Source: an uncultured Bacilli bacterium | GTDB taxonomy: Bacteria > Bacillota_I > Bacilli_A > RF39 > UBA660 | Direction of reading: 5' to 3' | NCBI GenBank assembly: GCA_947632375.1 | Contig: CANRPF010000014.1 | Span: forward strand, 1-37,063 | Length of the DNA: 37,063 nucleotides | In this document: positions 20,533-25,376 of the stretch, piece after piece | Numbering within the stretch: the stretch's first letter is position 1 | Layout: each line of letters begins with the position of its first letter | Notes under the pieces: generated by a model | The model's input: the letters and a program-made list of their open reading frames with translations, nothing else | Database searches by the model: none | Told to the model about the DNA's origin: nothing | Position numbers and translations under genes: made by a program

Positions 20533-21924
20533 TCATCCTTCTATCTTATAAGTAGTTCCTTCTCGAGTATCTAATAATATTATACCATCATTTTTTAAAT
20601 CATCTCTAATTTTATCAGCTAATTCAAAGTTTTTATTTTTTTTAGCTTCATTTCGTTCTTCAATTTTTTTCATAATATATTCATGATTTTCATTTTTTGT
20701 AGTTTGAGTTATTAAATTTAAACTTAATACTTTATCAAAGTTTTTAATTAATTCTAATTTAGTATGATTATTAACTTTATCATCTTTTAATATATCATAT
20801 ATTAAACTAATTGCATTTGCTGTATTTAAATCATCAGATATGTAATCAATAAATTTTTTATTATATAAATCAAATAAATCTTCTAATAAAATTCCATCAT
20901 CTTTAATACTATTTATTTTATTTATAAGTTTATTATATTGATTAACTGAACTATCTAAATTGCTAAAGCTAAATACTAATTGTTTTCTATAATGACTATT
21001 TAAACACATAAATCTAAATGCTAATGGATTATATCCTAAACTTTCTAATGTACTAACAGTAAGTATTTTACCTTTACTTTTACTCATTTTACCTGATTCA
21101 TCATTTAGAAATTCATTATGAAACCAATAATTACACCATTTATGGCCTAAATATGCCTCACTTTGAGCAATTTCATTTGTATGATGAGGAAAAATATTAT
21201 CTACTCCACCACCATGAATATCTAAATATTCACCCAAGTATTTAATACTAATGCCACTACACTCCATATGCCATCCAGGATATCCAACTCCAAAAGGACT
21301 ATCCCATTTTAATTCTTGGTCTTTAAATTTACTTTTAGTAAACCATAATACAAAATCTCCAGGATTTTTTTTATTTTTATCTAATTCTACATCATCTCTT
21401 ACCCCAACTAATAACTCATTTTGATTATGATTTGTTAGTGCATAATAATTAGATGCTTTACTAATATCAAAATATATATTTCCACCAGATTTATAAGCTA
21501 TTTTTTTATCTAATAAATCACTAATAATTTCTATATAAAAATCTATTAAATTAGTAGCTGGCTCAATTATATCTGGCATATCACAATTAAGTTTTTTAAA
21601 ATCTTCGAAAAATGCATCAGTATAAAATTTTGCTATCTCCATTACACTTTTATTTTCTTTAATTGCACTTTGAACCATTTTATCTTCACCGATATCACTA
21701 TCGCCACTTAAATGTCCAACATCAGTAATATTCATTACGCGTTTAACTTCATATCCAAGATATTCTAAAGTTTTTTCTAAAATATCATGTCCAATATAAT
21801 TTCTCATATTACCAATATGAGCATAATGATAAACTGTAGGTCCACATGTATAAAAGCCAACATAATTTGGTTTAATGCTTTTAAATTCTTCTATTTGTTT
21901 AGTTAAAGTATTATAAAATCTCAT
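20533..21924 (-). CDS. cysS: Cysteinyl-tRNA synthetase
   Basis: A 463-residue class I aminoacyl-tRNA synthetase that charges tRNA-Cys. It has the HIGN signature at 36-39, KMSKS at 279-283, and the zinc ligands Cys27, Cys222, His247 and Glu251 that select cysteine. The C-terminal DALR-like and anticodon-binding helices (KNKNFELADKIRDDLK) are present and length is normal. GGAGGT lies ahead of the ATG and a good promoter (TTGTAA-17-TACAAT) leaves only a short leader, so there is no room for a T-box riboswitch. It is the first gene of the cysS-yugP operon. Confidence 0.97.
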   Translation of the reverse strand: MRFYNTLTKQIEEFKSIKPNYVGFYTCGPTVYHYAHIGNMRNYIGHDILEKTLEYLGYEVKRVMNITDVGHLSGDSDIGEDKMVQSAIKENKSVMEIAKFYTDAFFEDFKKLNCDMPDIIEPATNLIDFYIEIISDLLDKKIAYKSGGNIYFDISKASNYYALTNHNQNELLVGVRDDVELDKNKKNPGDFVLWFTKSKFKDQELKWDSPFGVGYPGWHMECSGISIKYLGEYLDIHGGGVDNIFPHHTNEIAQSEAYLGHKWCNYWFHNEFLNDESGKMSKSKGKILTVSTLESLGYNPLAFRFMCLNSHYRKQLVFSFSNLDSSVNQYNKLINKINSIKDDGILLEDLFDLYNKKFIDYISDDLNTANAISLIYDILKDDKVNNHTKLELIKNFDKVLSLNLITQTTKNENHEYIMKKIEERNEAKKNKNFELADKIRDDLKNDGIILLDTREGTTYKIEG

Positions 21925-22008: not shown

Positions 22009-22032
22009 ATTTTGAGTGAAAGAGGAATATTT

Positions 22033-22698
22033 ATGATTTATTTAAAAACAGATAAAGGTGAAGCATGCAAACTAGTTCCTAATAAAGAAAAAATGTTTAA
22101 GTTTAAAGTAGATGAATTATCTAAATTACCAAAAGATAGTCAAGTTTTAGTTGCAGAAACAAATATTTATCCATTTGATGATGAAGAAAACTTAATAAAT
22201 GCAACATCAAATCTTCAAATAGAAAATATAAACTTTAATAATGGAGTCGAATTTCATACATTAACACCTAGTGCAAATTTTCAAAATGATTTTTATATTA
22301 TTAACAGTTATTGTAATAGTTTAGTTAGGTTTGGAAAACTATTAAAAATAAGAGGCTATTATGATCCTCAATATAGTATTGATGAAGATCCTTTATATAA
22401 ATGGATTACTTTTAATGAAACTTATTTAAAAGATAAAAATAATCCAGGAATATACAAATTGAAAAATATTATAAATTTAACTGAAAAATTATTTTATTTA
22501 GAAAATTTATTATCTTTAGGTAGAAAAGAAAAAAATTTAAAAAATATTCTTTTACCAGATGGAGAAGATTTATTAGAACTTTTAAATTTATTTGAATTAG
22601 TAAAAATAGATTATGCTGATTATACTAAATTTCATTCTTTTCATGTTGAAAGAAAAGTTACAGATAAAATATTAGCTTTAAAAAAGCCATCAAATTGA
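22033..22698 (+). CDS. Unknown protein
   Basis: A 221-residue protein starting MIYLKTDKGEACKLVPNKE. I do not recognise it. The first half looks beta-rich (VLVAETNIYPFDDEENL, VEFHTLTPSANFQNDFYII) and the second helical with a Leu-rich section (LTEKLFYLENLLSLGRKEK, LLELLNLFELVKI). It has no signal peptide or membrane segment. ATG 22033 has AGAGGA six bases upstream; the TTG 21 bases earlier precedes that site and is rejected. A near-consensus promoter suggests steady expression. It is divergent from cysS and converges on the ClpC-like gene. Confidence 0.75.
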   Translation: MIYLKTDKGEACKLVPNKEKMFKFKVDELSKLPKDSQVLVAETNIYPFDDEENLINATSNLQIENINFNNGVEFHTLTPSANFQNDFYIINSYCNSLVRFGKLLKIRGYYDPQYSIDEDPLYKWITFNETYLKDKNNPGIYKLKNIINLTEKLFYLENLLSLGRKEKNLKNILLPDGEDLLELLNLFELVKIDYADYTKFHSFHVERKVTDKILALKKPSN

Positions 22699-22709
22699 TG
22701 ACTTTTATT
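22680..22709. terminator. Bidirectional terminator between unknown gene and ClpC-like gene
   Basis: AAAAG-C-CATCA / TGATG-A-CTTTT forms a stem with one mismatch and a 3-base loop. T-rich tracts follow on both strands. The plus-strand TGA stop lies in the stem. Confidence 0.7.
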
Positions 22710-24567
22710 TTATTAAATTTTTGCTATTTAAACTTATTTTTATTCCTCTAAATCCAAAATTTTTATAATCACATAAATTATAATCAAAATCTTTTATATT
22801 ATTAAATTCTATATATTTATTAATACTATCTATGTTTATTTCATTAAATTTAATTATATAATCGACTTTATTTAATACCATTTTATTATCATATAAAATA
22901 GAATTTAATTCATTATTAAAACCAATATTATAAGATAATTTACTTGTAGCACTTAAAAATATAAAACTATTAGATATATTTTTATCCATTATTTTTCTTT
23001 CATCTATAATTTTTAATATAGATTCTAATATAGATAAATTACACTTTTCTATATTATCAAAAAGTATAACACTATTATTATCTAATTTATTATATAAACT
23101 ACTTTCTCCATTATATAAATTATTTATATTATAATAATTTGAATATTCTGACATATCAATATTTATATACTTTATACCTAACTCTTTACTTATTTCTTTA
23201 ATACTGATACTCTTTCCAACTCCAATACCACCTAATAATAATACTACTTTATTATTTTCTTTATTTATAAATATATTTAAAATTTTTCTTAATTGATCAT
23301 CTTGACCATATATTTTTTTATAAAGTTTTTTTAATATATAATTATTATTAACATGAAGTTTTCTATTTATTTTTCTACTTATTACTGCTTCTATATCAGA
23401 TTTAGATATACTATTTTTATTAATATTTTTAACATAAGAACATACACTATCTAATACATCAATTGCTTTATCAGGATTTTTTTTATCTAATATAAATTTA
23501 TTAGATAAATCTAATATCATATCTAAATTATTTTTTGTTATTTTAATATTATGATATTTTTTATAATTATCTTTAAGATTATATAAAATATTTTTTGTCA
23601 TTTCATTATTTGGTTCATTTATATTAACAATATCAAATCTACGCATCAAAGCTTTATCTTTAGACATATATTTTTCATATTCACTTATTGTTGTAGCGCC
23701 TATTATTTTTAATTCGCCTTTACTAAGATAAGGTTTTAAAATATTAGCAGCATCTATCGCTCCTTCACTACCACCAGCATTAATTATTGTATGTATTTCA
23801 TCTATAAAAAGTATAATTTTTTTACTATTTATAACATCTTTAATAACTGAATTTAATCTTTCTTCAAAATCACCTCTATATTTACTTCCTGCTAAAATTA
23901 AAGATAAATCTAAATTAAATATTTTATAATCTTTTAGTTTTTCATAAGAATTATCTTTTATTTTTTTTGCTAATTGTTCTACTATTGCTGTTTTTCCTAC
24001 TCCTGCTTCTCCTACTAATAATGGATTATTTTTATTTTTTCTAAGTAATATTTCTACTATTTGATTTAATTCTTGTTCTCTATCAGTTAAATTTATATCA
24101 TTATCACCTAAATCATAGCCATATTTTAATAAATTATTAGTTATAGGACTAAAATGTTTTTTTAAATCTACATATATACTTTCTAAATCTATACCTAAAC
24201 TAATAAGTATTCTTACACCAATTCCATCTCCACATTCTAGTATCGTTAAAAAAAGATGTTCTGGTGTTACTATACCATTATTATTTTCTTTAGCATTTTT
24301 CTTAGCTTCATTAATTACACTTTTTAGTAAAGGAGTATGTAAAATAGTTGTATTTTTTACATTTGATTTACCAATTATACTAATTAATTCATCTTTAAAA
24401 ATTTCATAAGTAAGATCATATTTATCGCAAATACTTTTTATATCTTTATTTTTTAAAAGTGCTAAAATTAAATGCTCTGTACCTACATATGGATGATTTA
24501 ATTTATTCATTTCATCTTCTGAATACTTTAGAATTTTATCTATATAATCCTTATTATATTTTGACAT
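22705..24567 (-). CDS. ClpC/ClpA-like AAA+ protein with degenerate second ATPase domain
   Basis: A 620-residue Hsp100-type protein, much shorter than ClpC (about 810). Residues 1-140 are a Clp N-domain with two repeats (PYVGTEHLILALL and IVTPEHLFLTIL). D1 looks active: Walker A GEAGVGKT 186-193, Walker B LFIDE with Glu257, pore loop KYRG, arginine-finger region RRF near 309-311. The coiled M-domain inserted in D1 of ClpC is absent. D2 keeps Walker A GGIGVGKS 446-453, but Walker B is FDNIEK (Asn505 where the catalytic Glu belongs), the GYVG pore loop is missing and the small domain is cut short. A ClpP-docking-like NIGF is at 547-550. Inferred: unfoldase or regulator driven by D1 only. GGAGGA precedes the ATG. 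It lies directly downstream of spo0A on the same strand. Confidence 0.87.
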   Translation of the reverse strand: MSKYNKDYIDKILKYSEDEMNKLNHPYVGTEHLILALLKNKDIKSICDKYDLTYEIFKDELISIIGKSNVKNTTILHTPLLKSVINEAKKNAKENNNGIVTPEHLFLTILECGDGIGVRILISLGIDLESIYVDLKKHFSPITNNLLKYGYDLGDNDINLTDREQELNQIVEILLRKNKNNPLLVGEAGVGKTAIVEQLAKKIKDNSYEKLKDYKIFNLDLSLILAGSKYRGDFEERLNSVIKDVINSKKIILFIDEIHTIINAGGSEGAIDAANILKPYLSKGELKIIGATTISEYEKYMSKDKALMRRFDIVNINEPNNEMTKNILYNLKDNYKKYHNIKITKNNLDMILDLSNKFILDKKNPDKAIDVLDSVCSYVKNINKNSISKSDIEAVISRKINRKLHVNNNYILKKLYKKIYGQDDQLRKILNIFINKENNKVVLLLGGIGVGKSISIKEISKELGIKYINIDMSEYSNYYNINNLYNGESSLYNKLDNNSVILFDNIEKCNLSILESILKIIDERKIMDKNISNSFIFLSATSKLSYNIGFNNELNSILYDNKMVLNKVDYIIKFNEINIDSINKYIEFNNIKDFDYNLCDYKNFGFRGIKISLNSKNLIK

Positions 24568-24623: not shown

Positions 24624-25376
24624 TCAATAATTAGATTCAATTTTTAATTTATCAGCGAGTGTTGCAATAAATTCACTATTAGTAGGTTTAGCACGATCAT
24701 AATCAACGCTATGGCCAAATATTTCTTCCATTATCTCATAATCTCCTCGAGTCCAACTTATTTCAATAGCGTGCCTTATAGCTCTTTCAACTCTACTGCT
24801 AGTTGTATTAAATTTATTAGCTATTTCAGGATACATTTCTTTAGTTATTGCTCCTATCATTGAAGGATGACTATACATAAGTCCGATACCTTCTCTTATA
24901 TATTCATAACCTTTAATATGTGAAGGAACACCTAATGAATGTAACAAGTTTGTAATAGCAGCTTGCAATTCTTTATTTTTATCTATTATATTAGAATTTT
25001 TTGCTCTACATGTTAATATCTGATATTCTAAATCTTTTAAATCAAAAGGCTTTAACATAAAATAATTTACATTAAGTAAGCTAACTTGTTTTACAATTTC
25101 TAATGAATTATACGCTGTTAAAACAATTATACTTTTTATAGTATTCATTTTTCTAACTTCCTTAATTATACTTAATCCATCTTTACCTGATAATATTAAA
25201 TCAATAACTATAACATCAAACATAGATTCGTTTGCTTTTATATAGTTATATGCCTCTTTTCCATCAGACATTAATTTGACAATATCTATTACTTCATGTT
25301 TACTAAAATACTTCTCTATACTACTTAATTGTTCACTATCTGAATCAACAAATAATACTCGTATTTTATTTTTCAT
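24624..25376 (-). CDS. spo0A: Sporulation master regulator Spo0A
   Basis: A 250-residue response regulator. Residues 1-120 are the receiver: phospho-acceptor Asp59 in VIVIDLILSGKDG, Thr/Ala in LTAYNS, Lys in FMLKPFD. The acidic pocket reads VDSD rather than the usual DD pair, so the second acidic residue is Ser12, although Asp13 is next to it. Residues about 137-250 are the Spo0A-specific DNA-binding domain, with LHSLGVPSHIKGYEYIREG, MYPEIANKFNTTSSRVERAI and HAIEISWTRGD, all characteristic. It directs entry into sporulation by binding 0A boxes. AAGGAGAG precedes the ATG. The 115 bases upstream contain several 0A-like sites, implying autoregulation. A CtpB-like protease gene is upstream and a ClpC-like gene downstream. 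Confidence 0.96.
   Translation of the reverse strand: MKNKIRVLFVDSDSEQLSSIEKYFSKHEVIDIVKLMSDGKEAYNYIKANESMFDVIVIDLILSGKDGLSIIKEVRKMNTIKSIIVLTAYNSLEIVKQVSLLNVNYFMLKPFDLKDLEYQILTCRAKNSNIIDKNKELQAAITNLLHSLGVPSHIKGYEYIREGIGLMYSHPSMIGAITKEMYPEIANKFNTTSSRVERAIRHAIEISWTRGDYEIMEEIFGHSVDYDRAKPTNSEFIATLADKLKIESNY

Follow-up and report, generated by a model that had tools for sequence, protein, structure and literature searches.

Docking of Clp unfoldases on ClpP

Clp unfoldases dock on ClpP through loops carrying an (L/I/V)G(F/L) tripeptide, which insert into pockets of the peptidase. A grafted IGF tripeptide can activate ClpP, though not clearly via the same pocket (PMC8745299), and the change of VGF to GGR in ClpE abolished the interaction with ClpP (PMC13125188). 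How the two AAA+ rings share the work is disputed: in ClpA the main motor is taken to be D2 (PMC9663308), whereas a recent structure of ClpC1 suggests that D1 may dominate (PMC11005422). In ClpE, mutation of Walker B or the pore loop in either ring strongly lowered degradation (PMC13125188). These ClpA (PMC9663308) and ClpE (PMC13125188) data raise the possibility that, in the parent enzymes, D1 on its own lacks the necessary strength. A search of the open-access literature yielded no account of a ClpC whose degenerate D2 is retained for docking.

The window analyzed here, a stretch of 37,063 nucleotides from an uncultured Bacilli bacterium, carries a clpC-derived gene in which the D2 motor is degenerate (Table 1). 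We consider it likely that its product is a ClpC that has turned into a one-motor partner of ClpP, with D1 as the sole motor and D2 kept as a tether to ClpP.

Table 1. Features of the clpC-derived gene and its neighbours, in window coordinates
Feature	Position	Strand	Details
clpC-derived gene	22705..24567	minus	620 aa; two Clp_N repeats, D1, degenerate D2
N-domain, two Clp_N repeats	24133..24567	minus	aa 1-145; Pfam PF02861; AlphaFold2 model
D1 AAA+ module without M-domain insert	23374..24132	minus	aa 146-398
D1 Walker A GEAGVGKT	23989-24012	minus	aa 186-193
D1 pore loop KYRG	23872-23883	minus	aa 229-232
D1 Walker B ILFIDE	23797-23814	minus	with Glu257
D1 arginine finger LMRRF	23635-23649	minus	RRF, aa 309-311
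Degenerate D2 module	22708..23373	minus	aa 399-620
D2 Walker A GGIGVGKS	23209..23232	minus	aa 446-453; kept in 4/4 of the genus
Asn505 codon	23053..23055	minus	in the place of the D2 Walker B Glu
IGF ClpP-docking tripeptide	22918..22926	minus	aa 548-550; after sensor 1
D2 sensor-2 region NFGFRG	22744..22761	minus	close to the shortened C-terminus
spo0A, upstream neighbour	24624..25376	minus	PF08769, PF00072
cysS, conserved neighbour	20533..21924	minus	clpC-gltX-cysS order in relatives

Domain organization of the protein

The reading frame contains no internal stops, and Pfam assigns two Clp_N repeats, AAA domains and an AAA lid to its product. A preliminary description of this DNA had proposed an intact D1 and a D2 that keeps Walker A and an NIGF similar to the ClpP-docking loop; the D1 Walker A, Glu257, KYRG and arginine region, as well as the two D2 elements, are all present in the sequence. 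Its further claim that D2 carries Asn505 and has no GYVG loop is borne out by alignment with intact relatives: the D2 Walker B of the window protein reads ILFDNIEK where theirs reads ILLDEIEK, its GYVGY pore loop is deleted and its arginine finger is changed from NRID to NKVD. The alignment places IGF at the docking-loop position of ClpA and ClpC. The M-domain had been described as gone, and indeed its segment measures 8 residues as compared with 57-67 in most intact relatives. A first view of the alignment, in which the M-domain seemed to be absent from the whole family, was discarded, as most intact members have it. The C-terminus lies just past the sensor-2 helix, and relatives of 770 residues extend further. 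Promoter and terminator scans gave a yield not above chance.

AlphaFold2 with the family alignment models the protein with a mean pLDDT of 86. D2 is predicted to be folded, its blocks mostly reaching pLDDT values of 80-93, and residues 545-555, which hold the IGF loop, form the only internal segment below 50. The known structure that it matches best is that of S. aureus ClpC in the MecA/ClpC/ClpP complex, with a Z score of 33.2 and an rmsd of 3.3 over 470 residues.

Descent from clpC and gene neighbourhood

One clpC-like gene per genome was found in this family of uncultured gut bacteria, and the window protein is nested among the intact one-per-genome orthologues, apart from ClpB. The clpC gene lies beside gltX and cysS in several genera, as it does in B. 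subtilis. Because of this nesting and the clpC-(gltX)-cysS neighbourhood, the window gene is clpC by descent and locus. Consistently, the protein scores 311.8 bits against the NCBIfam equivalog of ClpB (cut-off, 1232), which with its docking loop places it outside ClpB, and 367 bits against that of ClpA (cut-off, 993), from which the missing D2 Glu also separates it. It matches no ClpX model at an E-value of 1e-10, and its active ring is of the D1 type. The double Clp_N, the intact D1, the docking loop and the descent and locus are those of ClpC; the M-domain coiled coil and a catalytic D2 with Glu, pore loop and arginine finger are lacking. Because the active D2 and the M-domain are missing, the protein is filed not as a working ClpC but as a one-motor ClpP partner that descends from clpC.

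Two features of the surroundings deserve mention. A conserved 228-aa protein without a Pfam match is encoded convergently with clpC at 22012-22698 on the plus strand, 6 bp from the clpC end, and a 49% identical copy occupies the same site in G002 (L103). The cysS gene at the locus is only 34% identical to that of the window in L088:1261-2571, L089:10360-11670 and L078:278-1588, which suggests that a different cysteinyl-tRNA synthetase has taken its place in some genera.

As had been noted at the outset, spo0A adjoins the gene, being the next one upstream on the same strand at a distance of 56 bp. The product might accordingly be a ClpC relative that is linked to Spo0A and sporulation and acts as a regulator, possibly only as a chaperone, and the same adjacency in G001, G002, G004, G025 and G041 agrees with such a tie. 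However, among the genera examined the adjacency is confined to that of the window and two more. The D2 decay is also found in genera where the genes next to clpC are unrelated to these, and in other genera clpC is flanked by gltX/cysS, a murein hydrolase or a transporter. Furthermore, the docking motif and the co-occurrence with clpP described below point to a role in proteolysis. The sporulation role suggested in the preliminary description is extremely improbable, and the link with spo0A appears to be one of local gene order, a functional tie being not supported.

Authenticity and selection of the degenerate D2

Three congeners carry the same protein with every one of these changes at 69-72% identity. 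A frameshift or assembly error, which had been named as a possible cause of the short D2, is ruled out by this shared architecture in three other assemblies, and so is a sequencing error. GGIGVGKS, ILFDNIEK, NIGFNN and GFRG are invariant in 4/4 congeners, so that both Walker A and the sensor-2 Arg are kept throughout the genus. Per-segment dN/dS values of the four congeners, calculated by the NG86 method, are 0.22-0.36 for the N-domain, 0.25-0.33 for D1 and 0.39-0.54 for D2. D2 is under purifying selection in the genus, the point for which the preliminary description had proposed a dN/dS test; because its dN/dS is about 1.6 times that of D1, it is also partly relaxed.

The C-terminus of D2 is cut short, as had been described, but this trait is not peculiar to the window protein: it is common to a clade of relatives of about 700 residues that retain the Walker B Glu. 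A short D2 with an intact Glu in this clade suggests that D2 may have been shortened before it was inactivated.

Repeated loss of the D2 motor

Among 125 readable clpC copies, the D2 Glu is kept in 85, and D2 is dead or missing in 40. On a maximum-likelihood tree of the N-domain and D1 (57 rows), the D2 state requires 15 changes (14-16 on bootstrap trees), at least 7 of which are forced by well-supported branches. Since regain of Glu, pore loop and arginine finger together is unlikely, these changes are best counted as separate losses, and the D2 motor is read from the sequences as having been lost many separate times in the family. Every reading frame examined is open. Across the degenerate copies D1 shows no variation in its motifs, namely the KYRG pore loop, the two Walker motifs and the arginine finger. 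Outside the family, 17 more degenerate copies occur in families f5, f8 and f16.

Many related degenerate copies have lost the D2 Walker A. The most advanced state is found in genus g91, where L183 (435 aa) and L168 (459 aa) have no D2 at all and end after a short coiled coil; no D2 remnant was found past their ends, a metallopeptidase gene lying directly downstream. The model of L183 shows the N-domain and D1 fold followed by a disordered IGF tail. The M-domain is missing more often from degenerate copies (17/40) than from others (4/89), with a p value of 3e-7 that ignores kinship. An M-domain-like coiled coil persists in L050 and L168 despite a crippled or absent D2, so that loss of the M-domain and loss of D2 are separable.

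The residue that replaces the D2 Glu is itself recurrent. The homologue search called for in the preliminary description found Asn at this place in 34 of 37 readable degenerate copies, the remainder having Asp (2) or Lys (1). Asn makes up 13% of the residues in these D2 sequences, and the change from Glu to Asn needs two base changes. In S. aureus ClpC, residues near the Walker B Glu lie opposite the docking-loop base and are in contact with the hairpins of ClpP (PMC12521514); by analogy with these contacts, the recurrent Asn might have a role at the D2-ClpP face.

The Asn also bears on whether D2 might still hydrolyze ATP slowly, both rings then being motors in the genus of the window. In favour of this, 4/4 congeners retain Walker A, Asp504 of Walker B and the sensor-2 Arg. 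However, with the pore loop and the arginine finger gone, hydrolysis could be neither triggered in trans nor used to pull substrate, and the same Asn persists in copies that have no Walker A. Slow hydrolysis by D2 is highly improbable, while binding of ATP by D2 in this genus is plausible from its motifs.

Retention of the docking tripeptide

A tripeptide of the form xG(F/Y/I/L) is present in 40/40 D2-degenerate copies, the rate in shuffled D2 sequences being about 5% per window of search. It lies 44-50 residues past the dead Walker B site or, in the two D2-less copies, at the C-terminus, where L183 ends in NIGFKPS and L168 in PIGYTAEISYT. The three most conserved D2 columns of the 38 copies that have a D2 are G549 (100%), F550 (92%) and N505 (89%), and in a separate alignment of 53 sequences G549 is the sole invariant column outside D1. 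In L072 the C-terminal residue is the F of IGF itself, and L050, L142, L178 and L074 end 2-4 residues past the tripeptide. Apparent counterexamples (L129, L146, L120, L125, L128, L171, L168 and L183) were dismissed, as they carry TGF, MGF or a C-terminal IGF/IGY. In f5, f8 and f16, the tripeptide is found in 16/17 degenerate copies; L236 has KGF, not (I/V/L)GF.

ClpB proteins from the same genomes have an intact D2 without such a tripeptide, and the loop is therefore not needed for the fold. In the ClpX-like proteins of the family, the tripeptide has been lost in three or four cases, with their own ATPase either kept or lost; the loop is therefore not simply slow to disappear.

These observations weigh on the view that D2, or even the whole gene, is on its way out by relaxed decay in reduced genomes and that the docking loop has been left by chance. 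D2 evolves faster than D1, genomes in the family are small, and clpC and clpP are both absent from some members, all of which would fit such decay. However, all the frames examined are open and four congeners share the D2 motifs; the tripeptide remains in 40/40 degenerate copies after many independent losses while other D2 motifs are gone. Relaxed decay with the loop left by chance is very unlikely, and the claim of the preliminary description that the decay of D2 is selective is well supported by comparison.

Partners of ClpP in the genome

The genome of the window has one ClpP, in which Ser, His and Asp occur in the usual motifs as read by eye. A second, complete clpC had been suggested as a check; none was found in this genome. 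Its other large Clp is not a second clpC but a 703-aa ClpB without an N-domain, which scores 1126.7 bits against the ClpB model. Family ClpB proteins (L063 (G000:C1), L065 and L078) likewise begin at D1, the N-terminal substrate-binding domain being absent. A canonical ClpX is lacking in the family, none of its genomes having a match above the ClpX cut-off, and the search of the window's own genome for ClpX returned only cross-hits of FtsH and ClpB. The congener G004 has a decayed ClpX-like gene in which Asn replaces the Walker B Glu and IGF is absent, and the window's genome has a 34-bp gap at the corresponding site. Divergent ClpX-like proteins occur in the family (L110-L112 and L100:8248-9582 (P0002)), some with an intact Walker B and without the IGF loop. 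The McsB profile PF00217 gave no match, control genomes included. With ClpB as the other Clp and with neither ClpX nor a second clpC found, the genome, which is 96% complete, has the window protein as the sole putative ClpP-docking ATPase found in it.

Across 243 genomes, clpC and clpP are both present in 190, clpC only in 8, clpP only in 16 and neither in 29 (p = 4e-19, a value that ignores relatedness and incomplete assemblies). One of the 8 genomes with clpC and no detected clpP (G195) has a degenerate copy, and assembly gaps may explain these cases. Covariation of the ClpP C-terminus with the D2 state was considered and rejected: it is short in several D2-degenerate lineages, yet in some intact ones too.

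Docking on ClpP need not mean feeding it. The protein could act as a gate, cap or inhibitor of ClpP, its D1 ATPase driving assembly only, since in known complexes the grip extends without a break from D1 as far as the entrance of ClpP (PMC12521514) and is interrupted once the D2 pore loop is lost. However, KYRG, the Walker motifs and the arginine finger of D1 are invariant in the degenerate copies, as for a threading motor, and no other ClpP partner was found in the window's genome. A gate or cap is an unlikely role.

A probable one-motor ClpP partner

If the protein is a one-motor partner of ClpP, its N-domain would take in the substrate and the D1 ring would perform all ATP hydrolysis and pulling. 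D2 would neither hydrolyze ATP nor grip the substrate; its IGF would plug into the hydrophobic pockets of ClpP. Because D2 in the window's genus keeps its fold and ATP-binding motifs, it probably serves as a passive spacer or ring-stabilizer as well. In other lineages this spacer role would be gone too, leaving the hook alone. We infer that the protein forms hexamers and binds ClpP and that D1 suffices for unfolding and delivery. The division proposed in the preliminary description, with D2 as holder and D1 as worker, is well supported by comparison, as the docking tripeptide is the one D2 motif that is never lost, the D1 motifs are invariant and D2 is under purifying selection in the genus; binding of ATP by D2, which it included, may apply to the genus but is not general, Walker A being often lost.

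With somewhat less assurance, we favour the existence of a third class of ClpP partners: rings powered by D1 only, with D2 as a docking platform, of which one genus has nothing left but an IGF tail at the C-terminus. This state would have arisen many times over, with a recurrent switch from Glu to Asn. Repeated loss of the D2 motor with the ClpP hook kept would then be a natural experiment on the dispute between D1 and D2 (PMC9663308 versus PMC11005422), and the living intermediates would show how a two-ring AAA+ protease can turn step by step into one with a single ring. They also suggest that a tripeptide may suffice for the recruitment of ClpP, even when it sits on a bare C-terminal tail, and the recurrence of Asn even without Walker A hints at a further role at the D2-ClpP face.

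Comparison with known systems

The closest known system is ClpC, as in the MecA/ClpC/ClpP complex of S. aureus (PMC12521514), which shares the double Clp_N, D1, the D2 fold and the position of the docking loop. ClpC is also the best PDB match in both sequence and structure, and the relatives share its gltX/cysS neighbourhood. However, the window protein has no D2 Walker B Glu, pore loop, arginine finger, C-terminal end or M-domain, and g91 lacks the whole D2. ClpA (PMC9663308) resembles it in having two rings, IGL docking loops in D2, a D1 of the same class and no M-domain. The work in ClpA is done mainly by D2, with D1 as an auxiliary motor, whereas in the window protein the principal motor is the dead one.

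More distant systems share single traits. ClpI of Actinomycetota (PMC10149685), a two-ring Clp class described recently, also has members that differ in an expected feature; both of its ATPases are retained and one subclass lacks the LGF loop, which is the opposite trade to that of the window protein. The plant SMXL/D53 proteins (PMC9133912) are likewise atypical ClpC-like two-domain proteins, but they act in plant signalling, carry an EAR motif in D2 and have no described role with ClpP. HslU docks on HslV by its C-terminal tail (PMC4106860), as L183, L168 and the copies ending in IGF would on ClpP; the peptidase and the ring class are different, and the likeness is one of analogy only. ClpX, like the window protein, combines one active ring with IGF loops that dock on ClpP. 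Its ring is of the D2 type (NBD2) and is joined to a zinc finger, whereas the active ring of the window protein is of the D1 type and is joined to Clp_N repeats.
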